This document shows positions 26,814 through 47,956 of a stretch of DNA of 64,000 nt, one piece after another; the first letter of the stretch is position 1; each line of letters begins with the position of its first letter. The DNA is from Symbiodinium sp. CCMP2592 (lineage: Eukaryota > Sar > Dinophyceae > Suessiales > Symbiodiniaceae): positions 865,824 to 929,823 of the forward strand of contig CAJNDT010000613.1 in assembly GCA_905221615.1 (NCBI GenBank), read 5' to 3'. The position numbers and the translations under genes are program-made. Under the pieces are notes generated by a model. The model was not told the origin of the DNA, searched no databases, and worked only from the letters and a program-made list of their open reading frames with translations.

Positions 26814-27076
26814 GTGAAAGGGGGGGTTTTAAAGGCGTGCCTCAACCTGATCCGGCTCGCCTGGTCCCGCAGCCCCCTGGTCTCCTCTAAACCCTGGAAG
26901 CTCCGTGCTTGGGCCACAGCCTGTACAACAATTTCAAGTGCTGTAATTTTAACGCTACGCCGCCCGCCTCGGCTGTGTAGCGGCAGCAGTCGATGTTTTT
27001 TTTATGCTAGGGCGGCCTGTCAAACCCCAACCTTTACACGGTTGTTGATACGAAGTGCGAGGAGAACGGGTACAAA

Positions 27077-27153
27077 GGGGGTGGAGGGGGGGGGGGGGGG
27101 GGGGGAGAGGGGGAGGGGGGGGGCAGGAGGAGAAGGGGGGAGGGGGGGGGGGT
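27077..27153. repeat. G-rich homopolymer tract
   Basis: A stretch of about 77 bp that is almost pure G on the + strand with scattered A and one C. It lies about 280 bp upstream of the retroelement leader hairpin. Confidence 0.9.
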
Positions 27154-27355
27154 GAAACCATAAACCTCTAAAGGGGTAGCTCTAACAGGTACCTACAGCA
27201 ATGGCTGCATGCTCATACATATACATTCCGCTGCCCATTGGCTCACAGTGGTTTTACCATATTGAGACAAGACAAGCTCTCCTTGCGTAGCAAGACAAAA
27301 CAACTACTGTCCGTGTGCAGGGCGCTGCCCTTTGATCCTTAGGGAATAACTGGTC

Positions 27356-27393
27356 ATACACCTCCTCACAAGGAGTATTCCTTGGGGGTGTAT
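27356..27393 (+). promoter_or_regulatory. Leader stem-loop of the retroelement
   Basis: ATACACC (27356-27362) pairs with GGTGTAT (27387-27393), and inside it CAAGGA pairs with TCCTTG around a GTAT loop. Such stable leader hairpins next to the primer site are common in retroelement RNAs. A role in packaging or priming is inference. Confidence 0.6.
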
Positions 27394-27406
27394 CGGCACA
27401 GTTTTC

Positions 27407-27424
27407 TGGTAGCGGAGCCCGGAA
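27407..27424 (+). promoter_or_regulatory. Probable tRNA primer-binding site
   Basis: TGGTAGCGGAGCCCGGAA begins with the TGG that complements a tRNA CCA end. It resembles the initiator-methionine type sites (TGGTAGCAGAG, TGGTATCAGAGC) used by many copia elements. It lies 96 bp before the Gag start, and CA at 27399-27400 could be the last bases of a 5' LTR. Which tRNA matches is not established. Confidence 0.5.
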
Positions 27425-27502
27425 AGGGCCGCCCGCCTCACAAAGTCCGCTACAGCGGTCGGCCTCGCCGAACGCTTAACCAAGCGGATAAGAGGCAGCA
27501 CA

Positions 27503-30500
27503 ATGTCGAGCTCGCATAGCGAAGCCGACGGCAGTTCCCAATCCTCCGGGGGATATGAGAACGAAGAGACCTCCCAAGGTCCAGCTACTTATGTCGCACA
27601 GTCATATGCAACATCTGACCGCATGCTTGCATCATTAGGCATAACGCCCAAGATCGCGCCTGCCTATGATGGCACCACCTCGTGGTTTGAGTATGAACAG
27701 TTGATTGACGACTGGTGCGACATAACAACGCTGGATGACACCAAAAGAGGTCCGTCTCTCAAGACGAGGCTCTCCGGATTGGCCGCAGTACAAAAAGAAT
27801 CACTCAACCGAGAAAGGCTTGCAGCCCCAGATGGAGTAGATTACTTCAAGAAGAAGATGCGTCCATTTTTCGTGAAAGGAGAACAGTACGTTTTCCTGTG
27901 GCGTTTCCTCGGCCTATTCAAGGCATGGAAGGGCAACCAAGACTTTGTGACTTGGATTGCTAAGTTTGAGATCGTGCTACAGCGCGTGAAAAACTCATGG
28001 ATGGATCTCTTACCAGAGATAGCTCTGGAAGATGCCCATCCAGATTTCATGCAGGCTGTGCAGGCAGATCAAACCTTCTTGCGCCTACAGGATGCAACCG
28101 AGAGAGACACATACGCCGCACGTTTCTTCGAAACATGGAACAAGGAACGCCTTGATAATCATCGAAGAGCGTTTCCTCTAAATGATAATCTCCTAGCTCT
28201 TCTCTTCCTAGTGCAGTCCGACCTAAATGAGATGCAACGTGAGAGGTTGGTAACAGCATTGACCAACCAAGGTCACCGAATTGAGACCTATACGTACCCT
28301 GTGGTACGGCAGACCATGTTCGATCAGTTCTCAACGACCAGAACTGGTCTGCAGGATCCCAACATTCGGCACTCTTCTCACAAGAAGGACCGCCATGGAA
28401 GGAGAGACCAACGCCGCAAACGCGGAGGTCGAAACTTCCTCATCCTCGATCAGGGTGAATACGACGGAGTCGATGGATTCTGGCTCCAAGACGAAGACAC
28501 CCTTGAGGAAGGCTTTCTTGCCGCCGAGGATGAAGAAGCTGTCTTCTGGACAGTTGACGACCATGAAGCCTTCGTTGCAAGGAGATTCAAAAAGGGAAGA
28601 AGACCAAGAATGCGTCCCGGATCACCGGGAAGAGCAAAGGGTGGCAAGCGAAAAGGACGTGGCCGTTTTAGGTCATACCGCGGAAAAGGGAGAGCCAACC
28701 AGGCAGAACATGATCCAACTGATTCCAGCTATTTCGGTAAAGGTAAAGGAAAGGAAAAAGGAAAAGGTGGAAAAGGCAAAGGAAAAGGAAAGGACAAAGG
28801 AGATAAAGGAAGCTCCTTCAAGGGTACAAAAGCAAAAGGCAAAGGTAAGGATACAGCTAAGTCTGCCTCCTTACAAGGAGACCAAACTGGATCTCCACAG
28901 GCCTATGAAAGTTCCACCGCACCGAGCTGGGATTCATGGTATGAGGACAGTTATTATACTGACTCCAGTTGGAATTATGCCGCTTATGACGATCAAACGT
29001 CTTATACATACTATGCATCACAAGCCTCACGAAGAAAGACACGGAGAAAGAAGAGAAGAAATCAAGCAGGATCATCAGGTAGAGGCACAGATCCGAGCGC
29101 GCACCAAGAACCCGTGTACAACTCATCAGTGAGTTACGTGCCCCAGGTCTCTGAACCATCCGAGGGGCAAGGTGTGGAGACTGCAACAGCAGTGTTTCCG
29201 TTGCAGCACACCGTCCTATCTGCTCTCACAGAGCGGATCAATCTTGATAAGAGCCCTACCTTTGTCATACTTGACTCAGGTTGTACTAGGGCTATGGGTT
29301 CCCGCTATGCGGTGAACAGGCTTATCAAGGCCGTGAAGCAACATGCCCCAGGCATGATTGATTTCACTTTTTCACCTTCGAACACGAAGTTCTCTTTCGC
29401 AGATAGTGAAACAGCTCTTATCAAGGAGCGTGTAACTCTATGGTTCAACACAACTCCAAGAAGAGATACAACCATAGAAGTTTTGGATCAGGGAAGAGTC
29501 CCCATTCTGTTCTCCATCGAACAGATGAGGAATTTAAGAATGACTCTCGAGTGTAGTCCCACAGCTGACCTAGCAACGTGTGAAGCTTTTGGTTTGTATA
29601 AAACCCCTCTTCCGATTAGTACCAATAACCATTTGGTATTGGACCTTTTAGGCTTCACTTCCACCAGGAAGTATCTCCCTAAGTCAGGTACGTCGTTCAG
29701 TGCGACGGAGACTGCTCTAGGAGCCAAGAAGCCTTATACTAGGATACCGGAAGGTCGCTGTCCAGCCTGTGCCGGACAGAAAAAGGCTCACACGTACCTC
29801 AAGGGTTGCGACAAAGCACCTGAGGGAGCAGCTGATCCACCACCGAAGAGGATTTCAGGTAAAAAGAAGCCTCTTCCATCTGATCCGGCAGAATCATCTG
29901 CCAAGAAACTTGATCCACCAGAACCATCTGGTGATGCTCCTGAGCCTTCCGGACCATCGGAACCATCATCAGGCTCTAGGGACAAACCTGCAGAATCCTC
30001 TGCACCACATGAACCTCCAGAAGAAGAAAGACTTGAGGTCCCACCTGCGAAGATAAAGACTCCAAAGGGTCTTAAAAACCTTCTGAAGAAATCCCGCAAA
30101 TATGCGGTTAAATCTCCTGTTGAAGAGAAGTCTAAGGTCCCAGGAGCTGATGACGGGACGGAGGTAAGACCACTTGAGTCAAGAGAATACCCGGCTCCTG
30201 GTACAGACTCACCTACAGGTGAAGAGATTGTCGCAGAACCATCGCCATCTCTTCCCATTGCTCTTCGCAGGATTCATGAGAAGCTTAAGGACCCTGTAGA
30301 ACTCTATAAGCTTCACCTTAAGCACCGTCATATGAGTACGGATCAGTTCAAGCGACGCACAAAAGCCTTACAGATCCCAAAGGAGATATACGAGCTATAT
30401 GACCAACTGGTCAAAAAGTGTTCAGCCTGCCAGGAACATGTGAGAGCTCCTTCAAGAGCGAAGATTTCTGGTTTAAGATCAGAGACTTTCGGTGATCTCA

Positions 30501-31987
30501 CCTTCGTAGATCACGGTGAGCTTCCAATTCCCGGCAAGGATAGTCGCTTAGTATTTCTTATTCTCTATGATGGAGCAACAAACTTGTTGACTGCCGAAGT
30601 AGTCCAGGATAAAGAAGAACATACTACAATGTCGATTATGAATGACTACTTTGAGAAATTTCAGATCAACCCAAAGGTTGTAGTTGGAGATCAAGCATTC
30701 ATGACTCCAAAAATGGAGGCTTATTACAATCGGCAGAATATCAAGCCTGTGGCAACAGGACCTGGAACACCATGGCCCAACAGGGCCGAAGCTGCTGTAA
30801 GATTGCTGAAGCATCAGATTAAGCTCATACTTCAGATCCTGAAGGATGGTGACCCGCAGTATAACGGAATCACCATGAAGTATGGCAACCTCGTTCGCCA
30901 AGCATGTTTGGCAAGAAACTCTTCGATTACCTACGGAGGAGTTACTCCTTTAGAAATGGCCTTTGGAAGGCGTCCTCGAGATGTTATAACACCAGAGAAC
31001 GCTGATCCCAATCAGTTGACAGGTAATCCAACTGATACGGAAGTCACTGCGAGAGCCATTAAGGAGCTTGCCAACAGGGCTTACCAAGAGGCACGCCAAT
31101 CTGATGATCTGCGTAGAGATCTTGCAGCCAGACTGTCAATGACCCAAGGACCTTTCTCTTTGGGAGATAAGGTTTTCTACTGGTCAGAAGATAAGTCTAA
31201 GATTGGATCCACTGGGTCCAAACATGGATCTTGGCTAAAAGGAAAGGTGATCTCCGAACTCGGAGGATCCATGGTAGGTGTGGATCTTGGAACACGCATC
31301 GTCCGCGTCAATATCTCAAAACTGAGGAAAAATTATGACATAACATCTGATGTGGAGATTCCTCTCGCGCCTGATGAGGAAACTCTGACGTCAGAAGGTT
31401 CTGACCACGCAAGTTGCATGGTCACCTTCGATGCTTCCCTGCAGTCGACAGACCTAACGGTTCCACATCAAGAGTGTCACTGGCAGGTCACCAGCACTGG
31501 GAAGATTGACTTCCTAGAACTCTACGGCGGATCTCCCCGCATGAGTCACAAAGCTGCCCTGTCAGGTCTGCGAGTAGGTCAGCCAGTCGATTTGCGTAGC
31601 GGTCTAGATCTTGAGCAACCGCAAGGTCGCTCCAATCTTCTTAGGATCATCAAGGAACAAGAACCTACTATTATTGTTATGTCACCGGACCATTCTCAGT
31701 GGTCTAGCTGGTACTCACAGTGGAAGAAAGGCTCTGCCAAGAGACTTTCTGTTTTAAAATTCTGTGAATCGGTCGCAGACCACCAAATGAAGCTCGGACG
31801 TTACTTTGTTCTTGAGAACCCATACTATAGCAGGCTCTGGTCTTCACCAGAAGCAAAACGCCTGTTTTCAAATCATAAGATCAGCTATGAGGTCTGTAAC
31901 CTACAGGCCTATGGCATGAAAGATCCAACAGGATACTATGAATCGAAATCCTCGATTTTATGCACAACTTGCCACCGCAAGTTTTAA
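27503..31987 (+). CDS. Gag-protease-integrase-methyltransferase-like polyprotein (copia)
   Basis: A 1494-residue frame from ATG. Residues 1-280 are a Gag-like helical region. Residues 360-450 are very basic and rich in Gly-Lys repeats (FGKGKGKEKGKGGKGKGKGK), probably the nucleic-acid-binding part in place of a CCHC knuckle. The protease has VILDSGCTRAMGS (D591-S-G). The integrase zinc site uses H938/H943 and C973/C976; its catalytic triad is most likely D1003, D1063 and E1096 (WPNRAEAAVR). A basic C-terminal integrase region ends near 1276. Residues 1335-1475 resemble a methyltransferase: FLELYGGS (motif I), IVMSPDHSQW where a Pro-Cys motif is expected, and FVLENPYYSRLW (ENV-like). The frame then runs into a stop at 31985; the pol protein continues in another frame. 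It is probably the first part of a longer polyprotein. Confidence 0.85.
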   Translation: MSSSHSEADGSSQSSGGYENEETSQGPATYVAQSYATSDRMLASLGITPKIAPAYDGTTSWFEYEQLIDDWCDITTLDDTKRGPSLKTRLSGLAAVQKESLNRERLAAPDGVDYFKKKMRPFFVKGEQYVFLWRFLGLFKAWKGNQDFVTWIAKFEIVLQRVKNSWMDLLPEIALEDAHPDFMQAVQADQTFLRLQDATERDTYAARFFETWNKERLDNHRRAFPLNDNLLALLFLVQSDLNEMQRERLVTALTNQGHRIETYTYPVVRQTMFDQFSTTRTGLQDPNIRHSSHKKDRHGRRDQRRKRGGRNFLILDQGEYDGVDGFWLQDEDTLEEGFLAAEDEEAVFWTVDDHEAFVARRFKKGRRPRMRPGSPGRAKGGKRKGRGRFRSYRGKGRANQAEHDPTDSSYFGKGKGKEKGKGGKGKGKGKDKGDKGSSFKGTKAKGKGKDTAKSASLQGDQTGSPQAYESSTAPSWDSWYEDSYYTDSSWNYAAYDDQTSYTYYASQASRRKTRRKKRRNQAGSSGRGTDPSAHQEPVYNSSVSYVPQVSEPSEGQGVETATAVFPLQHTVLSALTERINLDKSPTFVILDSGCTRAMGSRYAVNRLIKAVKQHAPGMIDFTFSPSNTKFSFADSETALIKERVTLWFNTTPRRDTTIEVLDQGRVPILFSIEQMRNLRMTLECSPTADLATCEAFGLYKTPLPISTNNHLVLDLLGFTSTRKYLPKSGTSFSATETALGAKKPYTRIPEGRCPACAGQKKAHTYLKGCDKAPEGAADPPPKRISGKKKPLPSDPAESSAKKLDPPEPSGDAPEPSGPSEPSSGSRDKPAESSAPHEPPEEERLEVPPAKIKTPKGLKNLLKKSRKYAVKSPVEEKSKVPGADDGTEVRPLESREYPAPGTDSPTGEEIVAEPSPSLPIALRRIHEKLKDPVELYKLHLKHRHMSTDQFKRRTKALQIPKEIYELYDQLVKKCSACQEHVRAPSRAKISGLRSETFGDLTFVDHGELPIPGKDSRLVFLILYDGATNLLTAEVVQDKEEHTTMSIMNDYFEKFQINPKVVVGDQAFMTPKMEAYYNRQNIKPVATGPGTPWPNRAEAAVRLLKHQIKLILQILKDGDPQYNGITMKYGNLVRQACLARNSSITYGGVTPLEMAFGRRPRDVITPENADPNQLTGNPTDTEVTARAIKELANRAYQEARQSDDLRRDLAARLSMTQGPFSLGDKVFYWSEDKSKIGSTGSKHGSWLKGKVISELGGSMVGVDLGTRIVRVNISKLRKNYDITSDVEIPLAPDEETLTSEGSDHASCMVTFDASLQSTDLTVPHQECHWQVTSTGKIDFLELYGGSPRMSHKAALSGLRVGQPVDLRSGLDLEQPQGRSNLLRIIKEQEPTIIVMSPDHSQWSSWYSQWKKGSAKRLSVLKFCESVADHQMKLGRYFVLENPYYSRLWSSPEAKRLFSNHKISYEVCNLQAYGMKDPTGYYESKSSILCTTCHRKF

Positions 31988-32208
31988 TTCCTCTCCAGAG
32001 GCATTCTGCCAAAACGAAATCTCCAACATCTCCACCAGGAGACGAAAAGGGTATTCAAGGCTACGGTCTTAAAACGAAACTCGCACAAGTGTATCCTTAT
32101 GAATTCTGTGAGACCTTTGCCTCGTGTTTGGCAAGATTCCTGAAAGCGAGATGCGTATGCATCTCATCTGTCTTTAGTCACAGACATACTAGAATACTCT
32201 GGAGATGA
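31960..32208 (+). pseudogene. Frame-shifted linker piece of the copia polyprotein
   Basis: This frame carries the sequence expected to follow the methyltransferase-like part (MHNLPPQVLIPLQ, then GYGLKTKLAQVYPYEFCETF). It is one frame away from both the upstream and downstream coding segments. The first shift lies between about 31934 and 31975. The second lies just after 32140, where the downstream frame opens. It is therefore a decayed part of one polyprotein and not a separate gene. The recognised patch is about 60 residues, and no catalytic motif falls in it. Confidence 0.65.
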
Positions 32209-35095
32209 ATGCCTCCAGGGACTTTCGGAACTTCTTGATCAGGAGTATTCGCTTTTGACAACAAATCCTCTCAAGGATTCAAAACTCCTGCAAGATCCGA
32301 AAATCAGATCACTTGTTGCTAGAGTAAATTCTTTATCGAGTAAAACTGAATTACCATTGCATCATTCCAAACCATCACCGTCCCTTGATGCCTTGGTGTC
32401 AGACATTACTCGCCTTAGATCAAGACTCTTACCAGGGTCTGGTTTCGAACAGTGTACTCTATACAGAGGTACATTTGGAACAGTCAAAGCACTCACCAGT
32501 GTAACTGATGGCGTTCTTGTCTTTTGGAACAAGAAGAAGCCCAATTCGACTATGACGTGTTGCTTGCCGCACCAGGTTTCCTGGAACAAAGTACACCCAT
32601 CAACCTTCTCGGGGGTGCTCTTCCAGATGACAGGCGGCAAGACTTCACCGTCCGTGCGAACACCGCCGGATGTTATCATGTCGGACGAAGAGGTTTCGCC
32701 GTCAGACCCGTCAGAACCCATGAGCACTAATCGCTCACGGATCACATCTGACGATGTCTCTATGCCGGAACCAGATCAGCCGATGCCTCCCGGCACGCCG
32801 CCGTCGCGTCCTCCTCCTCCCATACCTCCACCGCGACTACCGGCCGTTTCCTCCGATGAGCCCGTGGCTCCTGCTCGGGCTAAGCCTCGCGTGCATCCGC
32901 CTCCTCGCGTTCCGTCTCCTCGGCGTCTGGGGGGTGATGTGTCGCCAAGGTCTTCATCGGAAAGGAAAGTTTCGCCGCACAAACAGAAATCACCTTCACA
33001 GGTGCCGACACCAAAACCTAAACCGAAGGCACATCCACAGGGACCCATTCTTCCGTTACAACAAGATGAAGAAGACACTGAAGAAGAACTGGTCCCAGAC
33101 GACCCCGGACAACCGTCCGCTCCTCCTCACACTTCTGGTTCACCAGAACCGGAGAGCGATGCCGAGTCAGAAAACACAAGGTATTACTCTGATGAGGAAG
33201 GTGACTTGGTCGTAGATGAGAAGGACTGGGTCCTTCTCACAGAAGAACAGAAACTGTGTAGTAACACAGGTTCTTTCTCCATGCCTCGGTACATGCATGG
33301 CGGACCCGTAGACATCAGAGAGGTAACATCAAGAGTGAGGTCAGACCGAACACGGTATAAACCCACCAAAAGGTTCCGATCTGACATTCGTGAAGAGTAC
33401 GATCTTCTCACGGAAGAGGACAAGGCCTTATCCCTAAGTTCCCCCAGGAACTCAGCGAATCTAACCCAGAAGGCACAACGGAAGGAGGCAACCGCCAAGG
33501 AAAAGCGTGAGATGAAGAAACAGTTTGATGAAGCGAAAGCAGCAGAATATCAGAGCTGGTTAGACAATGATGTCTTTGAGCTCGTCGATACACGGAACCT
33601 CGGAAACATCCGAAATTATGTCACTGGTCGATGGGTCCTGACTCTAAAAAGAGACAAGGACGGAAACTTCCTTAAGTGCAAGGCCCGATGGGTCCTGAGA
33701 GGTTTCCAGGATCGACAGAAGGACATTCAGCAAACTGATAGTCCTGCTGCGAGTCGCCCAGGTTTCCGCTTAGCGATTCAATTAGCAGCTAACAAGCTGT
33801 GGAATCTGACACACATCGACCTAAAGACTGCTTTCCTGCAGGGTGAAGCCTATGATGAGTCGAGAGACATAATCTGTCAGATTCCTCCTGAAGCAGGTTA
33901 TCCTTCCTACATTGCAGCGAGGATGAAGAAACCCGCTTATGGACTTAACGATGCACCTCGAAGATGGTGGAACATCGTTGATAAGGCACTCCTGTCTTAT
34001 GGCCTGGTGCCAACCCGTGCGGATCGCTGTACATATGTTCTGTATGGTAAGAAGTCTGCAACAGCAGATGCTGAGCTCAAGAAGTCTCAGCCAAAGACCA
34101 TGGAATCAGCGATTGACTATCTCCTAGATCCCATAGCAGGCAACAATGCCAAGGGTAGACAGGTACATGGAGTAGTCTGTTTGCATGTAGATGACCTGTG
34201 CATGGCCGGTGATGACACCTTTCGTAAGGCCGTGATTGAATCGATCAAAAAGGAGTTTGCAGTAGGTTCTGAAGACACGAATGATATTATGTTTGTAGGA
34301 CAGAGATTAGTCTGGAAGGATGCTACAGCATCAGTGCCAGCACATATCTCAGTAAATCAGAACCTAGCTGTTGAAGCTCTAGAAGAAATTGTTTTTGATA
34401 AGAAGCTCAACAATGAGCAACAATGCACACCACAGCAGCACACTGCTTACAGAAGTGTTTTAGGACAGATCAACTGGCTACAAAGCCGGACTCAAGCTCA
34501 CATCTGTTATCGCTTCAGTCGGTGTGCGAGCAAGGCTGCCAAGCCTACTATCGGTGATATTCGAGAATTGAACAAGCTTGTTAGGATTTTGAAGTCTACC
34601 GAAGTAGAATTGCGTTTTTGGCCGCTGAAGGGAAATCTCAGAATCCTCGGTTACCCTGATGCTTCCTACAGGAACAATGATGACAAATCATCTCAGAGAG
34701 CACATGTTATTTTCCTTGCTGAAGATCGAAATCCAAAGCTAAAAGGAATGAAACAATCAGCAGCAGCTGCTTCTTCCAAGAAGAACGATTTCTCTGAATC
34801 CTCTATTAAGGAAACATCCTCGAGAGGTAGCCTGGTGGATTATGAGTCTCACAAGATTACGACAACCACAATGTCCACAACAGTGGCAGAGCTTAACGCA
34901 CTGATGCGTTGCTTTGGTACTTGCCTGTTCCTCAAGGGACTTTGGGCAGATCTCTCATCAGAGACCGTACCCATACATATCAGAACAGATGCGAACAATC
35001 TTGTGACAACAGCAGGCACGACACACCTTCCAGAGCAGAAGGAAACTCACCATCTATACAGATGCTTCGTAAGGAATCCAACTCTGGATCTTTAG
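32144..35095 (+). CDS. Copia reverse transcriptase and RNase H (frame-shifted segment)
   Basis: The open frame begins after a stop at 32141 with no ATG at its head, as expected for an internal part of a polyprotein. Numbering below is from the TTG at 32255. A Pro/Ser-rich acidic linker (about residues 140-320) precedes the RT. RT motifs are THIDLKTAFLQG with D522, then LHVDDL with D646-D647 (copia elements more often have YVDD). RNase H shows GYPDAS (D802), AELNAL (E879) and RTDANN (D912). The end of RNase H, which should read into LRKES, is lost by a shift near 35045-35060, so this frame stops at 35093. Catalytic residues of both enzymes are present, yet the copy is not translatable as one protein. 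Confidence 0.85.
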   Translation, partial: KRDAYASHLSLVTDILEYSGDECLQGLSELLDQEYSLLTTNPLKDSKLLQDPKIRSLVARVNSLSSKTELPLHHSKPSPSLDALVSDITRLRSRLLPGSGFEQCTLYRGTFGTVKALTSVTDGVLVFWNKKKPNSTMTCCLPHQVSWNKVHPSTFSGVLFQMTGGKTSPSVRTPPDVIMSDEEVSPSDPSEPMSTNRSRITSDDVSMPEPDQPMPPGTPPSRPPPPIPPPRLPAVSSDEPVAPARAKPRVHPPPRVPSPRRLGGDVSPRSSSERKVSPHKQKSPSQVPTPKPKPKAHPQGPILPLQQDEEDTEEELVPDDPGQPSAPPHTSGSPEPESDAESENTRYYSDEEGDLVVDEKDWVLLTEEQKLCSNTGSFSMPRYMHGGPVDIREVTSRVRSDRTRYKPTKRFRSDIREEYDLLTEEDKALSLSSPRNSANLTQKAQRKEATAKEKREMKKQFDEAKAAEYQSWLDNDVFELVDTRNLGNIRNYVTGRWVLTLKRDKDGNFLKCKARWVLRGFQDRQKDIQQTDSPAASRPGFRLAIQLAANKLWNLTHIDLKTAFLQGEAYDESRDIICQIPPEAGYPSYIAARMKKPAYGLNDAPRRWWNIVDKALLSYGLVPTRADRCTYVLYGKKSATADAELKKSQPKTMESAIDYLLDPIAGNNAKGRQVHGVVCLHVDDLCMAGDDTFRKAVIESIKKEFAVGSEDTNDIMFVGQRLVWKDATASVPAHISVNQNLAVEALEEIVFDKKLNNEQQCTPQQHTAYRSVLGQINWLQSRTQAHICYRFSRCASKAAKPTIGDIRELNKLVRILKSTEVELRFWPLKGNLRILGYPDASYRNNDDKSSQRAHVIFLAEDRNPKLKGMKQSAAAASSKKNDFSESSIKETSSRGSLVDYESHKITTTTMSTTVAELNALMRCFGTCLFLKGLWADLSSETVPIHIRTDANNLVTTAGTTHLPEQKETHHLYRCFVRNPTLDL

Positions 35096-35370
35096 ATGAC
35101 CTAGCTCATGTAAGCTCGAAGTACTGCCTAGCTGATGCATTAACAAAGCATTCGGCGCAACCTGATGAGCTTATCAAGGCTCTGGAAACAGGAAATTTAC
35201 CAGAAACAGACATTCATCCACCCTTCCGTGAACTTCTTCAACATAAAGCTTTCACTGTTCGGTGGATCATAGACAACCTTAAGAATGCCGCTACAGCGGT
35301 AGCCTTCCTTGGAATCGATGTCTCAACAGAGATCTACCGATTATTTTACTGCCAAGGAACATGGTGGTAG
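35050..35370 (+). pseudogene. C-terminal tail of copia RNase H in a shifted frame
   Basis: IQMLRKESNSGSLDDLAHV, followed by a CLADALTK motif, is the ending typical of Ty1/copia RNase H regions, where strand transfer and template switching of the polyprotein finish. It continues about 70 residues beyond that motif before a stop at 35368. The piece is one frame off the RT segment, so a one- or two-base indel near 35045-35060 separates them. No ATG of its own is required. Confidence 0.7.
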
Positions 35371-35594
35371 TCTTGTTTGCTGGTAGCACAACCATGTGCT
35401 GGATTTTCTATTTAGACTGTTTTTCCGTCTAAAAGAAAATTTGTGTCTGCAGGCTGCGTTTTCATCAAGATCGGACATGTTCATGAGAACTATATGTTCT
35501 GTATCATCCGCAGCCGCTTTCAGCCTCGAGCCTCACAGCAATCAGCTTTTGAGCTAACCAAGCATTCCTGATCCTGTTTGGTCATCGTGCCGTA
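35371..35594 (+). other. Spacer between pol and the first extra ORF
   Basis: 224 bp without a long open frame. It has a small hairpin (TAGAC...GTCTA with loop TGTTTTTCC) followed by an A-rich run, then a pyrimidine/TG stretch ending in TCTGCAG|GC at about 35450 that looks like a 3' splice acceptor. A spliced subgenomic RNA for the downstream ORFs is possible, but no donor was identified. Confidence 0.4.
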
Positions 35595-37421
35595 ATGAGC
35601 ACACGATCAAACTTCCGTAGCCGTGATGGACACGCCCTACCCAGGGCAGTACAGGCGTACCATGAGCGACATCCACACATGGATAGCTCGTACCCCGAGT
35701 CTCGTCGGGAAGCATCACGTCGACACACCGAACACGGTGGACACCGATTTCACAAACGTGAGAAAAATCACGAGCCTCCATACATTTACATGGGTCACCA
35801 ACAGGTGTTCAATCCGCATCCAAGAGATCTTGCTGAACTGATCTCACGATGTGGCCATGCGAGTCGAGCAAGGCTCACTCCAATCTCCAGACATGGAGTC
35901 AGGCTCTACGAAGGAGTCCTTCAAGGACCATGGGACAACAGTCCCCTCTTATACTGGGATAACAACGTGGGTAATCACGCTCGTGATCCACGCCAGTTTT
36001 GTACGATGCTTGCACATCACCTTCAGACAGGCCTCCCACCGGAGGTAAAACAATGTGTGAGTCTTGATGCATCAGGAGAATATGACTATTCCTCCTCAGT
36101 GCCAAGACTGGCAGAGGTAACAGGTCTCTCACCAGAGATGTGCTTCCACATTCTTTCCAAGACCAACAGAGTCGGAAGGTGGTTGGCACACTCAACAAGA
36201 CACCTTCAGAACCAGCGCCCAGATCTCTTTGCTGGCCAACACAATTATCTTCTGGACATGTCCAAGTTGGCCGATGCAGAGCTCGCACAGTATACACCAC
36301 AAGAGATCGCGCTTGGTGTCCTCCTCAACACTAAGTCCAGGTTCGTGGTCACTATGGTTTATAACCAAGATGGCAAGGCCGAAACCACAGATGCCGCCGT
36401 TACCATCCCACCGGATGCAAATGTGCTGACCATGACCAAAGTTTTCCTCTCGGCAGTGGGAGGACACGGTTCACGACGAACTCTACCAAGAGCTGAAGAA
36501 CCAGATCCTGAAGAAGAGAGACCAAGGTCACACATGACCATCTCAGACTTCATGGCAACGGGGAGCAATCCTGTGCAGTCCCATGCACAGCGTCTCTCCA
36601 CTAACGCGCCAAGGCCCGTAGGCATGGAAGATTTTGTTCGACAGAACAACCCTTGTTACATCATGCATGCCACGGACTTACAGGCATTATCCTCAATCCT
36701 GAGGCATGGTCTGGTACCATCAAACCTCCTATCGCAGGTGGTTACCTCACCAGGTCTTCAAGCTCTCGTGAATGAAAACAGTCGTTCCAACAGGGACACT
36801 GTTCAGTTTTCAACGCTAAACCTGGCGAATCCTAATCCGACTTTGCTGCGTGCCAACAAGGCACTGCTTCTAGTATTCGACGCAAATAACGTAGTGAACG
36901 AAGTCACAAACATGTGGCAGTCGCAAGCAGGGATGTTTGCTACACCAGAGGTAGTGCATGCCCGTACTCTTAGCGCCGTATTCGCACCCTCTGAACCACT
37001 CTGGGTATCATCGCAATACGATGAGCTCAAGAGCATCGGACCATGGTGGGCAGACCACTGCTCCGAACAGATGCCGTCAGCGACTTACGAGTCGAAGAAA
37101 TGGTGCGCAAATTACGGCCAAGAGATCGAATCGACACTTCGTAAGGTGTCAAGGCGAAATCTGCCTCCAGAGCCTCCCAAGGCTAGATCTTCTCACAAGA
37201 AGTCTTTCTCTCTGCCAAATACAGAGGCTGACACAGCTCCAAACCTGGAGCAAACCGCTTCTGCAGGTGAGGTACCTCCGAAAACGGAGACTACTGCAAA
37301 GGAGATCCATCCGAGATCCAAGCTCGCCCGGCAGGCCGAGGCGACAAGGATCCGGACAGTCTTATGGGACAGCTCTGGAACTCCGACGGCACCAGAAGCG
37401 CCACTGAAGTTCTTAAGATAA
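35595..37421 (+). CDS. Extra ORF 2: Tpt1/KptA-like (RNA 2'-phosphotransferase fold) protein
   Basis: 608 residues from an ATG, no introns. Residues 133-220 resemble the N-lobe of Tpt1/KptA: FCTMLAHHLQTGL where the family has an LSRLLRH-type motif (here Ala-His), then LSPEMCFHILSKTNRVGRW matching the T.e.l..iv..n.K.RF segment, then LFAGQH near the family IRAxQGHS. After an insertion (about 220-350) residues 354-465 resemble the ADP-ribosyltransferase-type lobe: YIMHATDLQALSSILRHGL (family YHGT...I...GL), NRDTVQFS (family R.HVHLS) and KALLLVFDANNVV. In the known family this enzyme removes a splice-junction 2'-phosphate from tRNA using NAD+. Here the first Arg of the Arg-His motif appears replaced, so activity is uncertain. 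The C-terminus is Ser/Thr/Glu-rich. The stop overlaps the start of the next ORF. Confidence 0.55.
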   Translation: MSTRSNFRSRDGHALPRAVQAYHERHPHMDSSYPESRREASRRHTEHGGHRFHKREKNHEPPYIYMGHQQVFNPHPRDLAELISRCGHASRARLTPISRHGVRLYEGVLQGPWDNSPLLYWDNNVGNHARDPRQFCTMLAHHLQTGLPPEVKQCVSLDASGEYDYSSSVPRLAEVTGLSPEMCFHILSKTNRVGRWLAHSTRHLQNQRPDLFAGQHNYLLDMSKLADAELAQYTPQEIALGVLLNTKSRFVVTMVYNQDGKAETTDAAVTIPPDANVLTMTKVFLSAVGGHGSRRTLPRAEEPDPEEERPRSHMTISDFMATGSNPVQSHAQRLSTNAPRPVGMEDFVRQNNPCYIMHATDLQALSSILRHGLVPSNLLSQVVTSPGLQALVNENSRSNRDTVQFSTLNLANPNPTLLRANKALLLVFDANNVVNEVTNMWQSQAGMFATPEVVHARTLSAVFAPSEPLWVSSQYDELKSIGPWWADHCSEQMPSATYESKKWCANYGQEIESTLRKVSRRNLPPEPPKARSSHKKSFSLPNTEADTAPNLEQTASAGEVPPKTETTAKEIHPRSKLARQAEATRIRTVLWDSSGTPTAPEAPLKFLR

Positions 37422-40400
37422 CGACAGGTCACAAACCTCCAGAACCTGTTCAGGATACTTCTGCCAACGTAGTTCCTCCCAAGGAAGAATCTTCTGGAAC
37501 AGAGACGGAACCTGAGGAACCAGATCCTAACCAGGATTGTGACGAAGAATCAGACGTTGAGTCGGCATCAAGCGAAAAGAGCGAAAAGAGCGAAAAGAGC
37601 TCAAAATCTTCGTCATCCTCAGAACTCCGAGTTGATGTTAATCCGTCTCACAAGACGAACTCTGCACCTGCAGCGTCAGAGGAGAAGAAAGAATCTCCCA
37701 CGGAAGAGATCACAGAGAAACTTGAGAAGGTCAAACTTGACCAACCAAAGCCTGAAACAGAATATGTTCAGAGTTCAGACGAAGAGCCAAGGAAACCAAA
37801 ATCTCCTAAAAAGGAGAAGGAAAAATTCCTAGTTCTCTTCGATCCTGAAACAGAAACTTATTATCGAGTCAACAGAAGCAAGCTCAACCTCGAATACGAG
37901 GAGCCTGCTGATGAGGAAGACCTCGTAAGAGAACATGAGCGCATCAGCGCTCGAATTCGAGAAAATACCAAGCACCGAATCTCGAAGTCATCGTCTAACC
38001 CGGCTATGCAACAGGAAATGCAAGAGAGAATCTGGGTTAGTCGATGGAATCGAAAAATCCGAAGTCCACTCATGATCAAAGATTCTGAGGCTCCTGACGA
38101 AGAGGAGTGGGACAGACCCAGAGAGTCGGCATCTTCCTCCTCTGCACCTCCTAACAAGGAGAGATTTGTAGGAGTACGCAGGACAGCCATGAGCCTTAAC
38201 CAAAGGATACGAATGTTGCCTCGACCAGACAATCCTCTCTGCGATCTCTGCAAACAGCCTACAGGCTATTTTTGCTATTCCTGTGGTACGATTGTATGTG
38301 CAGACTGTCGACTTACCCCACAGGGTAAACAACGGATGTGCGAGTGCGTCTTGCCAATCGATTGCCTTGAGACCTCCAAAGTGAGAGCAGGAATGACCTC
38401 AGAAGAGCGTCAGTTTTTATACGAGGCCATCCTCACACATGAGGACGTAGATTTGGCAGTCCAGAAAATCAACATGTATTGCGACCACGCAAGAAGTCTG
38501 TTCGAAAAGGACCATCCAGGCGTTGATCCATGCAGCCTTGATGATATTAGGAACAATCCTCCGAATACGTATGACAGCTCCACAGAGGCTCCAACCCTGG
38601 AGGAATATAAGAGCATTAACAAGAGTCACATCAACATCAAGGACTCTAGAACAAGCCATCCGGCTTCTTTTCTCTCTCTTACTGGCTACGAAGACAAACT
38701 GGTGCTCGACGCACATTACGAGATAGTTCGCAATAGGATGGCCGGTGTTAACGAGAAGAGAGAATACATTGAAGGCTCAAACCCAGACAGCGTATCGCTA
38801 AACCTAGTGGTATTCAACTGGGGAAATATGGATCGAGCGCCGGTGCCCGCAGGGAATCCCAAAAAGAAGCTCAAACCTGAGAAGGGATTCGATTATCACC
38901 CTCTTATTGACATGTGCTTCAACAATTCAGCTCATATTACCCTCGTACTCGAGGCAGGAGCACTTGCGTCAGAGTATTCGATCGCAACCATGCGACAACA
39001 TGAATACAGGGGGATGCTAATCCATTCTCCTCCCAAGGAGCCTGAGGCACCCTCGATGTATATTGGAGTCAAGGGTGACCCAACAACAGACATCGCTCTC
39101 GTCCATCACTTTTACCGTCATCGAACAATGAAGCCTAAGAATGGTGGTCCCAAGAAGCGACTGTGGGCATGCCACGGTGCGGTATGCCGCCTCACCTTTG
39201 GGTACCACAGTACCATACCAGAGGCAAAAGAATGGGTCCACCCATATTCTGGCCAAAGGATGACGAGAGACGAGTTCATGCAGATTATCGGATATGACCC
39301 ACTCAAGGGCAAAAATCCTGACAAGGATGGACCCACTGATGGCTCTTACCTCTCACCAGAGGCGTGCCTGACACTGTCGAACCTCGACCCCTCGCCGGTT
39401 CTCTGTGAATGGAACGGCCATGTCGAGGGTGATGAGCCACCAGAGGAAGACTTTGAGTCATACGCAGAGATCTTCTCACAAGAAGCATCGAACGATCTTG
39501 ACGAGATGTGGTGTACAAAAGGGCCTTACAAGGTCATCACCATCGCGATCGTCCATTTCAACTCATTCATGACTCATAAGGAAGAACAGAGACGCGAACT
39601 GGTGAACGCGTTCCTCAACGAGATTCTCCCTTTTAAACCGGATGTAATAGCGGGAGATCTCAATAATATTGCGTCGAGGCTCACCTTAAAAGGTGGAGAC
39701 GTTCACCCGCGAAACAGTTTGTTTTCTCTATACCTGGAGAAGAAACTTGCAGCATTCAACAAAATAGCAGGAAGGCACTCACAAGTGCGACATCTTTGCT
39801 TGAACAACTCCGACCAGCACAGACTGGCACGTGCAGATCGTCTACCGGCGGACCCGGCGAAGAAAGTTGCTGACCTTGACTGTATCAACAGTTATATCCT
39901 TGACTGGAGTAAAACGCCGCACACGGCGTCACCTAGTCCAAGAGATGTTACACCTGCCGCCGAAAGAACATACTGGGAGCGAATCTCAGATATGTGGCAG
40001 GACATGAACAATAACAGGGATATTGATATCCGTCTGTTTGTCTCAGTCAAGCAGTACTATTCAACTTTTTCTAACCTTGACCTATGGTTGAGTCCCTCTG
40101 ACAAAGATTGGCACAGCCCTTTGGGCTTCACGATACAACCAATCCTTACAAAAGGGAAACACAACCGGTCAGATGCCCAGGTTCAGAAGATCGCTGACAA
40201 GCGAAAGGCTTACAAGCAGCGTAATGCTGAATACTGGGGTTACAACGATTCATTCGTTTACTCATCCGGCAACAGCTGGTACGACAAATCGCAACCATCA
40301 GGTAGCCATCACAGATACGGAAGATTCTGGGAATGGCCACAGCCTGAACGTCCCAGCGAGCCTGAAGGTCCTCCTCCAAGAAGGAACCAGGAATCATCGT

Positions 40401-42517
40401 CCTCTTCACAACAAGATCTACCAAGATCAAGGTCCAGGCCTCAAAGAACCAATATTGTTGACAAGCTCAACATGTCTTTGGAAGAGCTGGATGGACTAGA
40501 AGAAGAACCGTCACCAACAAAAAGTGACATCGAAGAACACGAAAGAGAAACATCAAACTTGATGTCTGCTCAGAGAGATGAAGAGGAACAAGAGGACGAA
40601 TCCTCCAGCCGGAGGAGAAGAAGGAAGGCATCGCGTCCACCGTCTGCTCCGAGCGGCAAGGCACTCAGAACAGCTGCTACAGCAGCGGGGTTGTCGGGCT
40701 GGTTCGGACACCGCAACCGAGGTGGAGCGAACGCAGAGTCTATCAAGACTGATGAAACTTCACTTCCAAACTCACTAACCAGTGAGCAGGACTTCTCCGT
40801 CTTCAGCATCGCGTGGAATGTGTTTCTGCTGCTAATGGGCTTACACTGGATGTGGAAGCAGATTACCAGGCCTCCTATCAGATGTATGGAGCGCCAACAA
40901 CCAAAATCAAAAGCAGCAGCGAACCAAAGAGTTCCATTCCTCGAACCCGAGGATGAACCGCAGACGCGTGAACCTTTAGGACCCAACAGGGTCAATTCCG
41001 GAGAAACAACTGATCTGCGACCTATCTGGCATACTTCCCGAAGCGAAGTCTACCATCTCTCAGACAGCTGTTACCAGCTCAAGCAAGCAAGAGATGTTTG
41101 CAGGAAGGTGCTGTGCAAAAACTGCCTCCATGCAGTACAAGTTGCGGAGATTCGCAGGAACGATCCTTTCCAAAGAGGTGATACACGTCCACGTGGCACC
41201 GAAAGAGACATTGAGCGCTTCCAGACCTACGATGATGCAAGTACCACTCCTCATATGACACAATTATTCAAAGATGCCTTGCATGCACAAATGGCCGAAG
41301 AAGCCATGCAGATTACCTATACATCGATCCCCAAGGGATCCTCGGCAAGAGCCAAAGGCACATCTGCACTTTCAAGTGCTGCATCGTCGTCAGCGCCCAA
41401 GGCAATGCCACCAGGGCCTAACAAGGCAAACATGTCACCTCCACCTAAGAGTCCTCCGCCAAAGGCGAAAGGAACAGTACCTTCAGATCCTCCAAGACCA
41501 AAAGGTCCTACCAGAAGAGGAGGTCAAAATCGGCGCATTCAACGAAAGGCAGCTAGAGAAGCCCACAACAGTGGACTCTGCACCTATGCAGACGCTGCAC
41601 TTAACGAAGCCAATCAAGGCCAGGCAATTAACGTTACGTGCCGAAACATGGCAGCAAGACACGTCAGCTCTATCGATGCAACGGTAGAAGCAGCCGGCCA
41701 GTTTACACAACGCGTGCTACAGCACGTAGAAACATATGATGAAGAGGAACCGTGGAGCACGGAGTTCCTACCAGTCGTGGAAGTCCTATTCAGGAACTTA
41801 AGCGGCGACGAAACAACTGTCATACATGACAATCAAACGGTAACTATGCCTCTTGCGAAATACACAGACCTCCTCAGAATCGCACAATCATTGCGAAGCT
41901 CTATCCAGAGAGACAAGGAGGAAAGGAAGGAACATCTTGACACCATCCAAGATACTCTATCCAGAGTGGAAATCCTTCTAACAGCACTGAAGGACTCAAG
42001 GACAGTCTTTAACCAATTGGTCCATTCCTCACTAGAGATAGAGCGAAGAAATAACAATCTCAAAAATGTCCTCGAGACACTCTTTGACGACCAAAGCTCT
42101 GAGGAAGACCAGTCAGAATCTGACAATGAAGAAGTCCTAACTCCTTCTGCAGCACAGTATTGGAATAGCCTTTATGCCCACGCCTTATCTCCTTCAGGAG
42201 ATGAAAGTGAAAGATCATGGGCGTCCTCAGACGGACAGCTTGAAAGAAGAAGGGCTGAACGGGCAAAGGCTAAGCAGCCACAACCGGCTAAAGCCAAGGC
42301 AACTCCAGTCAGCTCACAAGCTGCGCCAAAGGCCGAGCCAAAGGCGACAACATCCAACCATGGATATGATACTGCAGACGCCGCCTTCACCAGGGCTGAG
42401 AACAGACTACTCGGAATCTTTTCAAGTTCCGAAGAAGATCACTCAGACCCGGATGAGCCACATCCGAACGTCTATGCTCGAGCCTATGATCCAAACCTGG
42501 ATCCGAATCTGAGATAA
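37364..42517 (+). CDS. Extra ORF 3: 1717-residue protein with EEP nuclease-like core
   Basis: The longest frame in the window. Residues 1-260 are acidic and disordered. Residues 293-334 hold a CxxC-CxxC-CxxC-CxC cluster (CDLCKQPTGYFCYSCG onward) like a B-box or other treble-clef zinc finger. Residues 478-920 carry the full motif set of the endonuclease/exonuclease/phosphatase fold: VVFNWGNMDR (N485), TLVLEA (E530), IVHFNSF (H731, N733), DVIAGDLNN (D765, N767) and a terminal SDKDWHSPL (D913, H917). These correspond to the metal-binding and catalytic positions of the family. A Ser/Arg/Glu-rich linker follows, then a hydrophobic segment at 1145-1163 and a YHLSDSC...LCKNC zinc site (H1231, C1236, C1251, C1254). 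The rest is coiled-coil-like and acidic. The open frame extends upstream of the ATG to 37271, overlapping ORF 2 in the -1 frame. The substrate is unknown. Confidence 0.6.
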   Translation: MGQLWNSDGTRSATEVLKITTGHKPPEPVQDTSANVVPPKEESSGTETEPEEPDPNQDCDEESDVESASSEKSEKSEKSSKSSSSSELRVDVNPSHKTNSAPAASEEKKESPTEEITEKLEKVKLDQPKPETEYVQSSDEEPRKPKSPKKEKEKFLVLFDPETETYYRVNRSKLNLEYEEPADEEDLVREHERISARIRENTKHRISKSSSNPAMQQEMQERIWVSRWNRKIRSPLMIKDSEAPDEEEWDRPRESASSSSAPPNKERFVGVRRTAMSLNQRIRMLPRPDNPLCDLCKQPTGYFCYSCGTIVCADCRLTPQGKQRMCECVLPIDCLETSKVRAGMTSEERQFLYEAILTHEDVDLAVQKINMYCDHARSLFEKDHPGVDPCSLDDIRNNPPNTYDSSTEAPTLEEYKSINKSHINIKDSRTSHPASFLSLTGYEDKLVLDAHYEIVRNRMAGVNEKREYIEGSNPDSVSLNLVVFNWGNMDRAPVPAGNPKKKLKPEKGFDYHPLIDMCFNNSAHITLVLEAGALASEYSIATMRQHEYRGMLIHSPPKEPEAPSMYIGVKGDPTTDIALVHHFYRHRTMKPKNGGPKKRLWACHGAVCRLTFGYHSTIPEAKEWVHPYSGQRMTRDEFMQIIGYDPLKGKNPDKDGPTDGSYLSPEACLTLSNLDPSPVLCEWNGHVEGDEPPEEDFESYAEIFSQEASNDLDEMWCTKGPYKVITIAIVHFNSFMTHKEEQRRELVNAFLNEILPFKPDVIAGDLNNIASRLTLKGGDVHPRNSLFSLYLEKKLAAFNKIAGRHSQVRHLCLNNSDQHRLARADRLPADPAKKVADLDCINSYILDWSKTPHTASPSPRDVTPAAERTYWERISDMWQDMNNNRDIDIRLFVSVKQYYSTFSNLDLWLSPSDKDWHSPLGFTIQPILTKGKHNRSDAQVQKIADKRKAYKQRNAEYWGYNDSFVYSSGNSWYDKSQPSGSHHRYGRFWEWPQPERPSEPEGPPPRRNQESSSSSQQDLPRSRSRPQRTNIVDKLNMSLEELDGLEEEPSPTKSDIEEHERETSNLMSAQRDEEEQEDESSSRRRRRKASRPPSAPSGKALRTAATAAGLSGWFGHRNRGGANAESIKTDETSLPNSLTSEQDFSVFSIAWNVFLLLMGLHWMWKQITRPPIRCMERQQPKSKAAANQRVPFLEPEDEPQTREPLGPNRVNSGETTDLRPIWHTSRSEVYHLSDSCYQLKQARDVCRKVLCKNCLHAVQVAEIRRNDPFQRGDTRPRGTERDIERFQTYDDASTTPHMTQLFKDALHAQMAEEAMQITYTSIPKGSSARAKGTSALSSAASSSAPKAMPPGPNKANMSPPPKSPPPKAKGTVPSDPPRPKGPTRRGGQNRRIQRKAAREAHNSGLCTYADAALNEANQGQAINVTCRNMAARHVSSIDATVEAAGQFTQRVLQHVETYDEEEPWSTEFLPVVEVLFRNLSGDETTVIHDNQTVTMPLAKYTDLLRIAQSLRSSIQRDKEERKEHLDTIQDTLSRVEILLTALKDSRTVFNQLVHSSLEIERRNNNLKNVLETLFDDQSSEEDQSESDNEEVLTPSAAQYWNSLYAHALSPSGDESERSWASSDGQLERRRAERAKAKQPQPAKAKATPVSSQAAPKAEPKATTSNHGYDTADAAFTRAENRLLGIFSSSEEDHSDPDEPHPNVYARAYDPNLDPNLR

Positions 42518-46001: not shown

Positions 46002-47448
46002 GACTTACTTGTTAAAGATTAGTATTATATTATTCAGTCGTCACATCCATGGCTGGACTCAGGTAGTTGGCACGCAAGAGTTATATTGCAGGCAACGAGC
46101 TGCACGGCAAGAGGTCCTCAACAAAGCCAAGGCTCCTCAAGTGGTCGTGGCCAGATGTAAAGCAGAGCCAAGCAGACCACTCGTGGCCAGATGTAAAGCA
46201 GAGCCAAGCAGACCAGAGGACAGACCAGAGCCCGTGGAGCCACAATCAACTTCGCCAGCACAGGTGAACATGCCTTCCCAGCCTCTGCCTGAGCCAGAGC
46301 CTGCGGCATTGCCCCGCCAGCCAATTGGACCACCCGTCAGCTTTGGCCCCCCAGCAAGGCCGCAGCCAGAACAAGCACTGAAGCCACAAGCAAGTCAAGC
46401 CACAGCCGCAGCAAGTCCAAGGAGACCACCTGAGAGCCTTTTAAACCCAAGGCATTCAGCAAGACCAGAAATGCCAATGCCACGAGCAAGTCCAGCCACA
46501 GCCGCAGCAAGCCCACCACCAGCAGGGCTGCAGCACCAAGCCCAAGCCCCGCTAACTCCGCGGCCAAAAGGACGGCCAATGCAAATAACTGAGCCAGCAC
46601 AGCAACAGCAAGAGCAGCAGGTCCAACAAGCCCCGCCAACTCCTCAGACTCCCCCCCCCTCCTCGCAGCGGCCGCAGCAAGTGGCACAGCCACGGCAACA
46701 GCAACCAGCCCCACAAACTTCAGCTGCACAAACTCAGCAAGGGCTTCTAGCAGCACCGCCGCAGGTCCCAGAAATGCCGCCACCGCGGTGGCAGCCGTTG
46801 CGACAGCAGCTGCAGCAGGGAGCCCCGCCGCAGCAAGAGCAGCCGGCACCCGTGAGCCAGCCGCCGCTCAACCGTCAGCAACAGCCGCTACAGCAGAGAA
46901 CATCACAGCAAGAGCAGCCCGCGCCCGTGAACCAGCCGCTCAACCCTCGGCAAGAGCCGCTGCAGCAGAGAGCCCCGCCGCAGCAAGAGCAGCAGCCGCT
47001 CAACCCTCAGCAACAGCCACTGCAGCAGAGAGCCCTGCAGCAAGAACAGCAGAGAACATCGCAGCAAGAGCCCGCACGCGTGAACCAGCCGCTCAACCCT
47101 CGGCAAGAGCCGCTGCAGCAGAGAGCCCCGCCGCAGCAACAGCAGCAGCCGCTCAACCCTCGGCAACAGCCGCTGCAGCACAGAGCAAGACCGCAGCAAG
47201 AGCCAGCGCCCGTGAGCCAGCCTCTGAACCCGTTGAACGTGCCATTCGGCTTTCCGATGCCGCCGCTGGCGAATCCGTTGCTGCCGCCGCCACCGCTGCC
47301 GTTGCCGGTTGTTCAAGGGCAAGAAGTGGTTGAGCAGATGGCTTCGCTGCTCAAGGTTACGACAGCAATGCTGCTACTCAACCGCAATTTGCATGTGTGT
47401 GATGGTTCGGTATGTGTAATTTCAATCAGTAGCATCATGGAGTGGTAG
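45979..47448 (+). CDS. Pro/Gln-rich repeat protein exon
   Basis: An open frame of 489 residues, of which the part from about 46060 looks coding. It begins with a 36 bp direct duplication (VARCKAEPSRP twice), then becomes Pro/Gln/Ala-rich. Between about 46790 and 47220 it repeats a 25-30 residue unit of the type NPRQEPLQQRAPPQQEQ five or six times with varied trimming. It ends in a hydrophobic stretch (about residues 455-475). No catalytic domain is seen; such regions are usually disordered scaffolds. The first ~27 codons lie in AT-rich sequence and are probably intron. Splice ends are uncertain: AG at 46061 is a candidate acceptor. Confidence 0.45.
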   Translation: MIIKLTFKTYLLKISIILFSRHIHGWTQVVGTQELYCRQRAARQEVLNKAKAPQVVVARCKAEPSRPLVARCKAEPSRPEDRPEPVEPQSTSPAQVNMPSQPLPEPEPAALPRQPIGPPVSFGPPARPQPEQALKPQASQATAAASPRRPPESLLNPRHSARPEMPMPRASPATAAASPPPAGLQHQAQAPLTPRPKGRPMQITEPAQQQQEQQVQQAPPTPQTPPPSSQRPQQVAQPRQQQPAPQTSAAQTQQGLLAAPPQVPEMPPPRWQPLRQQLQQGAPPQQEQPAPVSQPPLNRQQQPLQQRTSQQEQPAPVNQPLNPRQEPLQQRAPPQQEQQPLNPQQQPLQQRALQQEQQRTSQQEPARVNQPLNPRQEPLQQRAPPQQQQQPLNPRQQPLQHRARPQQEPAPVSQPLNPLNVPFGFPMPPLANPLLPPPPLPLPVVQGQEVVEQMASLLKVTTAMLLLNRNLHVCDGSVCVISISSIMEW

Positions 47449-47548
47449 TAGTAGGACTAGTACTAGTACTAGCACTAGTAGTAGATTTAGTTAGTTGTTG
47501 TTGTAGTTGTAGTTAAAGTAGCAGTAGCAGTAGCAGTAGTAGCTTTAA

Positions 47549-47956
<408 letters not shown>

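Follow-up and report, generated by a model that had tools for sequence, protein, structure and literature searches.

A probable high-copy Ty1/copia retrotransposon of Symbiodinium with a large second open reading frame and insertions beside G runs

We analysed a stretch of 64,000 nucleotides of Symbiodinium sp. CCMP2592 (G000:C613:865824-929823, hereafter the window) by comparing it with the host assembly of 1.098 Gb and 5383 contigs. The window locus is very probably a damaged copy of a Ty1/copia long terminal repeat (LTR) retrotransposon of about 15.9 kb that has reached a high copy number and was recently active, an assignment covering both its identity and its structure. The layout of the family is LTR(248)-gag-pol-ORF B-LTR, gag-pol forming a first open reading frame (ORF A) and ORF B a giant second one. 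The family combines known Ty1/copia machinery with this unusual accessory reading frame and with a striking oriented target preference. An initial annotation of the window had proposed that the extra reading frames downstream of pol travel with a copia-like element of about 15 kb, and the counts and spacings of the element ends reported below bear this out.

The element ends were mapped with short sequences from where the ends of three other copies, on contigs C1668, C5149 and C4944, were expected. Comparison of window positions 27153-27400 with the 3' ends of these copies delimited a 248-bp LTR, 99.6% alike. The element hence begins at 27153 and not at 27356, where the initial annotation had placed its start. 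Within single copies, the 5' and 3' LTRs were 100% identical over 248 bp in C1668, 100% identical over 249 bp in C5149 and 99.6% identical in C4944; since they are identical or nearly so, these three insertions are recent. Each of the three is flanked by an identical 5-bp sequence on both sides, TGGGG (C1668), AGGGG (C4944) and GGGGG (C5149), and target duplications appear to be 5 bp long. Direct TG...CA LTRs with a short target duplication, as in Ty1/copia elements, were thus found in all three copies. Homology of the window to the other copies ends at 42761/42762. In C1668, the 3' LTR begins 56 bp beyond the matching point; a 3' LTR is present in C1668, C5149 and C4944 and missing from the window copy. 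A repeat search of the window between 20 and 50 kb returned no LTR pair, an Rfam search of the window gave 0 matches, and one initiator-tRNA pattern scanned in the genome for the primer-binding-site-like stretch at 27407 also gave 0 matches. The boundary features are:

27077-27152, no strand: G-rich target tract 5' of the element, directly adjoining the LTR; G runs are likewise found at the 13 other copies whose flanks were examined.
27153-27400, forward strand: 5' LTR, 248 bp, TGAAACC...GGCACA; same sequence as the 3' LTR of C1668, C5149 and C4944.
27407-27419, forward strand: primer-binding-site-like stretch TGGTAGCGGAGCC, placed from sequence just after the 5' LTR.
42762, no strand: point where the window copy departs from the family on comparison with other copies, the 3' LTR being missing.

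The 5' LTR/leader junction was detected 680 times and the 3' LTR junction 350 times in the host genome with at most 2 mismatches, the reversed-pattern control giving 0 in both cases. Among the matches listed, the first 100 5' junctions (contigs up to C736) were compared with the first 76 3' junctions (contigs up to C726), and two ends were paired when a downstream 3' junction lay on the same strand within 60 kb. This procedure paired 65 of the 100 sampled 5' ends and left 35 without a partner. The spacing was 15.2-15.7 kb in 48 of the 65 pairs, 9.3 kb in one and 10.5 kb in another; the remaining 15 were further apart, where nesting or mispairing is possible. A form devoid of ORF B, ending after RNase H and expected at about 8 kb, did not appear as a class among the 65 paired ends, a single one of which was shorter than 10 kb. 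Copies ending after RNase H, which the initial annotation had named as the observation that would speak against its proposal, were therefore not encountered as a class in this sample. The pairing measured the spacing of the ends and not their content; ORF B itself was seen between the LTR ends in C4944, C1668 and C5149. Searches with reverse transcriptase (RT), Tpt1-like and EEP-like probes yielded 778, 790 and 754 first-look candidates, respectively, and the 40 scored for each probe were all at 99-100%, the window included. The loci used below for reading frames were the best-scoring ones and not a random sample.

To describe the insertion sites, we read 60 bp at each end of ten further copies, which we chose for clean spacing and which are all in + orientation on their contigs. 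Each of the ten adjoins G runs on both sides. GGGGG was present on both sides in 8/8 of those with standard LTR ends, a result nearly automatic inside G runs and so weak alone; C114 and C294, which have variant LTR starts, were left out of this duplication count. Together with C1668, C5149, C4944 and the window, 14/14 insertions examined adjoin G runs, with the G on the element coding strand each time, the window copy being counted by its 5' side only as its 3' end is lost. In C4944, C1668 and C294 the G run before the LTR is short, with 4 to 8 G at the end of the 5' flank. As a background, about 1 in 1547 30-mers (0.0006) of the window at 0-26 kb and 43.5-63.9 kb contained at least 60% G, and the same number contained at least 60% C. 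The occurrence of TGGGG and AGGGG in two copies argues for genuine duplications and for an origin of the G runs in the target DNA, not in the element.

Two further observations were made on the flanks. The 5' flanks of the window (26944-27063) and of C4944 (L043, 853-960) are 75% alike just before the LTR, so that another repeat may precede the G runs. About 190 bp past the 3' LTR of C5149 there is a second element start, in the same orientation and again beside a G-rich stretch (L042, 1356-2501).

The five open reading frames of the initial annotation were all found where it had placed them (27413-31987, 32144-35095, 34897-35370, 35553-37421 and 37271-42517). The first three belong to ORF A:

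27413-31987, forward strand: ORF A part 1, 1524 amino acids (aa), with gag, protease (VILDSGC at 29264), integrase (rve E 0.017) and the methyltransferase-like stretch; its 3' end carries a break private to the window copy.
30503-30772, forward strand: integrase core, rve over residues 1031-1120, E 0.017, under the cut-off.
31499-31984, forward strand: methyltransferase-like stretch, with SPDHSQWS at the place of the PC motif of C5 enzymes, described from sequence only.
32144-35095, forward strand: ORF A part 2, 983 aa, with the reverse transcriptase (RVT_2 E 1.3e-17) and most of RNase H.
34897-35370, forward strand: ORF A part 3, 157 aa, the end of RNase H, in a different frame in the window copy; open to 35368 in 9/9 other loci.

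Pfam detected an RVT_2-type reverse transcriptase in the window pol above the cut-off, while rve remained sub-threshold with E values of 0.017-0.032. In copy C4944 the integrase lies upstream of the RT within one frame, which corresponds to the copia order of protease, integrase, RT and RNase H (PR-IN-RT-RH). The gag-pol frame reaches 2,652 codons in other copies and is open from 32100 to 35368 in 9/9 other RT loci. Some copies have breaks of their own: the frame of C4944 is open over the 31.99/32.14-kb break of the window and broken near 28.85 kb, and gag-pol of C1668 is broken near 30.5 kb. Judged from these aligned loci, the pol breaks of the window, like the split of ORF B described below, are damage private to the window copy.

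The initial annotation had counted three modules beyond the usual set, namely a methyltransferase-like, a Tpt1-like and an EEP-like one. Profile comparison supports the Tpt1-like module and is suggestive only for the EEP-like one. The methyltransferase-like stretch is unconfirmed as a methyltransferase. A C5 DNA methyltransferase is expected to show the catalytic PC motif and a PF00145 match; the window has SPDHSQWS, and Pfam gave no PF00145 match at E<=10 in 3 relatives. Its comparison with a dcm profile reached 0.85%, while a decoy reached 1.2%. The relative P0009 has ECTAW at the position of PDHSQW in the window element. By our own count, 25 of the 150 scored methyltransferase-like matches lie in 2652-codon frames and most others in shorter ones. 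The link drawn by the initial annotation to methyltransferase capture by Symbiodinium retrotransposons is not transferable: in the part of de Mendoza 2018 available to us (PMC5890265), the DNA methyltransferases (DNMTs) of Symbiodinium retrotransposons sit in LINE and DIRS elements, and Symbiodinium LTR Copia elements are described as without any DNMT domain.

The last two reading frames of the window, called ORF2 and ORF3, form ORF B:

35553-37421, forward strand: ORF B part 1 (ORF2), 622 aa, from MSTRSNF at 35595; fused with ORF3 in 7/9 other loci.
36171-37028, forward strand: Tpt1/KptA-like domain, both lobes, from HHalign against 9 KptA, probability 88-90% with the reversed control at 0.1-0.4%.
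37271-42517, forward strand: ORF B part 2 (ORF3), 1748 aa stop to stop.
38228-38311, forward strand: B-box/FYVE-like zinc finger, zf-B_box E 1.9e-4, under the cut-off (21.9 of 24.1 bits), in 3/8 members.
38777-40158, forward strand: EEP-like core (NWGNM, LVLEAG, VHFNS, GDLNN, DCINSY, DWHSPL), from the motif order by eye and HHalign against ybhP-type EEP.
40793-40849, forward strand: hydrophobic segment, a possible membrane anchor, mean hydropathy 1.56 over 19 residues.

ORF2 and ORF3, annotated at first as separate, make a single frame in 7/9 other Tpt1 loci (the exceptions being L013 and L014), which rules them out as two genes. The 4.6-kb EEP piece is fully open in 4/9 other EEP loci (L021, L023, L026 and L028) and carries breaks in the other five. 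In other copies ORF B has a length of about 2,320-2,400 codons. A search started from the protein P0003 recovered 22 near-full-length ORF B matches, of which 12 lack a stop and 10 contain one TGA; in two of these ten, C4944 and C3411, the stop sits in an upstream extension. This extension starts at ATGGTGGTAG, a candidate ORF B start which overlaps the ORF A stop. In the young family, the frame from ATGGTGGTAG to MSTRSNF contained a stop in 16/18 loci, was open in 1 and frame-shifted in 1, the 18 loci representing 17 copies (C3411 twice). Since this frame is interrupted in most young-family loci, ORF B may start at MSTRSNF, or at the overlapping ATG in some copies.

The Tpt1/KptA-like domain is supported by profile-profile comparison. 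HHalign against a set of nine KptA sequences (one from E. coli, the other eight from plasmids and phages) gave probabilities of 86-90%, against 0.1-0.4% for reversed controls, the confident local part being the NAD lobe. The long alignment places TRH on the catalytic LRH, NTKSRF on DKKRF and MHAT on YHGT. With Pfam, PTS_2-RNA was below the cut-off in the window ORF2 (E 0.009) and was matched in 4/8 members, at best with 1.7e-4, some members not spanning the region. The catalytic set of Tpt1/KptA is Arg-His-Arg-Arg; the complete set was not recovered in the domain, its fourth Arg being judged by eye only. KptA-like genes are present in phages too (94 phage records). The domain resembles Tpt1/KptA RNA 2'-phosphotransferases in having both lobes alignable, the R-H pair, H-x-T and the NAD-lobe block, and differs from them by a long inter-lobe insert, the replaced third Arg and its embedding in a protein of 2,300 residues.

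For the EEP-like core the comparisons are suggestive. HHalign against six ybhP-type EEP sequences gave 39.8%, centred on VHFNS...GDLNN, and 31.6% when yafD was added, reversed and unrelated controls lying at 0.1-0.7%. Sequence searches of the PDB found nothing significant. In viral contigs, scanned with two short peptide patterns, there was no ORF B relative, and the KptA query found none either.

Five proteins match the later part of ORF B; of the three that are named, two belong to Symbiodinium sp. CCMP2592 and one to S. microadriaticum, which places the host in Symbiodinium. P0003 (1900 aa) is a single protein with a Tpt1-like, a zinc-finger and an EEP-like part; its identity to the window Tpt1 and EEP parts is 54.6% and 67.6%, respectively. 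P0006, from S. microadriaticum, shows an RVT_2 part joined to an ORF B part, possibly a gene-model join. In the diverged host copies C913 and C1170, ORF B has pol immediately upstream, and in C625 it also follows its pol. The pol sequences of C913 and C1170 are 92-97% and 89-95% identical to the young family in their main segments; a stretch of C1170 pol is rearranged, and the alignment of C913 pol leaves out its last residues. Between the window and C913/C1170, the ORF3 part of ORF B is 70% identical, with a nonsynonymous divergence (dN) of 0.215-0.218 and a synonymous divergence (dS) of 2.5-2.9. The resulting dN/dS of 0.07-0.09 is rough, as dS is near saturation; C913 compared with C1170 gave a dS of 0.80 and a dN/dS of 0.11. 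On these substitution estimates, ORF B is long-term conserved as a protein, under selective constraint.

A protein of the same strain, P0007 (named BSL3), joins an annotated phosphatase with gag-pol and ORF B pieces and is probably a gene-model artefact or an exonised copy.

The element would move by the ordinary LTR cycle of RNA, particle, cDNA and integrase, and ORF B is a conserved accessory protein of about 2,300-2,400 residues rather than passive cargo. As the most likely of the functions considered, though at less than even odds, we propose that ORF B works on nucleic acid within the particle or the integration complex: the zinc finger and EEP-like core would assist in choosing or opening G-rich target DNA in a single orientation, and an RNA or protein end would be modified by the Tpt1-like domain in an NAD-dependent way. 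A more specific proposal, which we consider rather unlikely as it stands, is that the giant ORF B with its Tpt1-like, zinc-finger and EEP-like parts was recruited to direct strand-oriented integration into G runs, perhaps as G-quadruplexes, the integrase working with a second, LINE-like nuclease and ORF B serving as a targeting module exchangeable between lineages. Exchange of this kind is suggested by the depths of divergence: comparison of pol between the young family and C913/C1170 gave dS values of 0.85-0.95 for three segments and of 1.75 for the remaining one, so that the genealogy of ORF B seems deeper than that of pol and ORF B may have been exchanged between lineages by recombination, the alternative being differences in rate.

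Several results weigh against this overall reading of the element and of ORF B. Many copies carry broken frames, and dN/dS is higher within the young family (ORF B, 0.30 and 0.45; pol, 0.20). The difference in depth between ORF B and pol itself counts on this side, as does the fact that ORF B and G runs were observed together in a single copia family. In the Tpt1-like domain, LSAVGGH is aligned with IRAVQGHS, so that the third catalytic Arg is apparently missing; HHalign against E. coli KptA alone gave 13%, though this was the best of ten targets, and a KptA hidden Markov model scored the members weakly, with a best E of 1.5. For the EEP-like core, global-mode alignment to ybhP-type EEPs fell to 0.1%, and no EEP match was found in Pfam, NCBIfam or PHROGs, Pfam giving none at E<=1 in the window reading frames and none at E<=10 in 8 members. 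ExoIII did not rise above the controls and was outscored by some decoys, all being single E. coli sequence targets; ExoIII is a narrow yardstick for EEP (80 close relatives kept), and ybhP-type relatives are better. The AlphaFold models were unusable, with a mean pLDDT of 31 and 42 from shallow alignments of 8 and 9 sequences, and Foldseek on the better one returned nothing at E<=0.001.

Other explanations of ORF B were considered. It could be an envelope-like third gene, which would make the family a retrovirus-like element of copia type with Tpt1-like and EEP-like parts that are remnants or structural. ORF B does occupy the position of env after pol, its candidate start ATGGTGGTAG lies over the ORF A stop, C625 and P0003 have a hydrophobic N-terminus, and the window copy, L061 and P0003 have a hydrophobic segment towards the C-terminus. 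Its protein diverges faster than pol, and extra 3' sense ORFs of plant elements have been interpreted in this way in what we could consult of PMC7264820. Against it, the upstream extension is interrupted in 17/18 young-family loci (two loci from one copy) and the ORF B domains resemble intracellular enzymes; we regard an envelope-like gene as unlikely. We give a similarly low likelihood to ORF B being an RNA-end-healing module in which the Tpt1-like and EEP-like parts shield tRNA primers or genomic RNA from host cleavage. Parallels for RNA-end healing are phage KptA with RNA ligases and the ANGEL2-type EEP cyclic phosphatases; the aligned R-H pair of the KptA-like domain and the phage occurrence of KptA-like genes would fit such a function. 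Against it stand the unaligned third catalytic Arg, the absence of a ligase in Pfam scans, an EEP-like core without subfamily assignment and a primer-binding-site tRNA for which the single initiator-tRNA pattern had no match in the genome.

It is highly improbable that ORF B is part of a separate element inserting beside the copia element. The differing pol and ORF B dS between families speaks for such an arrangement. Against it, ORF B lies inside the LTR ends of C4944, C1668 and C5149, the end spacing is constant in 48/100 sampled ends, and in C913, C1170 and C625 ORF B comes after pol.

Compared with known systems, the family shares with Ty1/copia LTR retrotransposons the RVT_2 domain, the PR-IN-RT-RH order, TG...CA LTRs and 5-bp target duplications, and differs from them by its size of about 15.9 kb, its second ORF of 2,300-2,400 residues and its oriented G-run insertion in the copies read. 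Sireviruses, plant copia elements often with an envelope-like gene, also have a large ORF after pol; compared by description only, as given in the accessible part of PMC3599292, they are plant-specific; ORF B, for its part, carries a Tpt1-like domain and possibly an EEP-like one. Enzyme domains beyond the usual set are also present in the Symbiodinium retrotransposons SymbioLINE-Dnmt and SymbioDIRS-Dnmt3. According to the portion of PMC5890265 at hand, they have LINE or DIRS backbones and conserved DNMT key residues, whereas the window element is a copia whose stretch has neither the PC motif nor Pfam support. The present family adds to the picture of Symbiodinium copia elements, described in that portion only as without a DNMT domain. 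Heat-activated Ty1-copia elements in S. microadriaticum are cited in PMC11453091, as far as its text was available. Among the reports listed, which were judged by title and the start of the abstract, none describing an LTR element with a Tpt1-like or EEP-like domain was found; given this scope, the statement is a weak one.

LTR elements that are large, recently active and equipped with extra enzymes serve as natural experiments on the recruitment of functions by selfish DNA, and this family is a good test case. Because ORF B is conserved, copies number in the hundreds, LTR pairs are near-identical and sites are predictable in the copies read, both the role of ORF B and the steering of an LTR integrase become directly testable.

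Some minor observations concern other repeats of the host. The pentamer ACTTT is scattered in another host copia family (L185 1-1870, L186, L002-L004, L006 and L007); in L185 it occurs 58 times in 1870 bases against 2.4 in block shuffles, with spacings of at least 9 bases. The window element shows no ACTTT excess (13 in 15360). In a third copia family (L001, C361), ATTG occurs 78 times for 13.9 expected, as if scattered motifs were family-specific among the three families compared. The ACTTT-rich family also has further ORFs in its 3' region, of 153 and 233 aa in L185 and of 351 aa in L186. Finally, an (AGT)n array of about 171 units lies outside the element, at 47441-47956 of the window.

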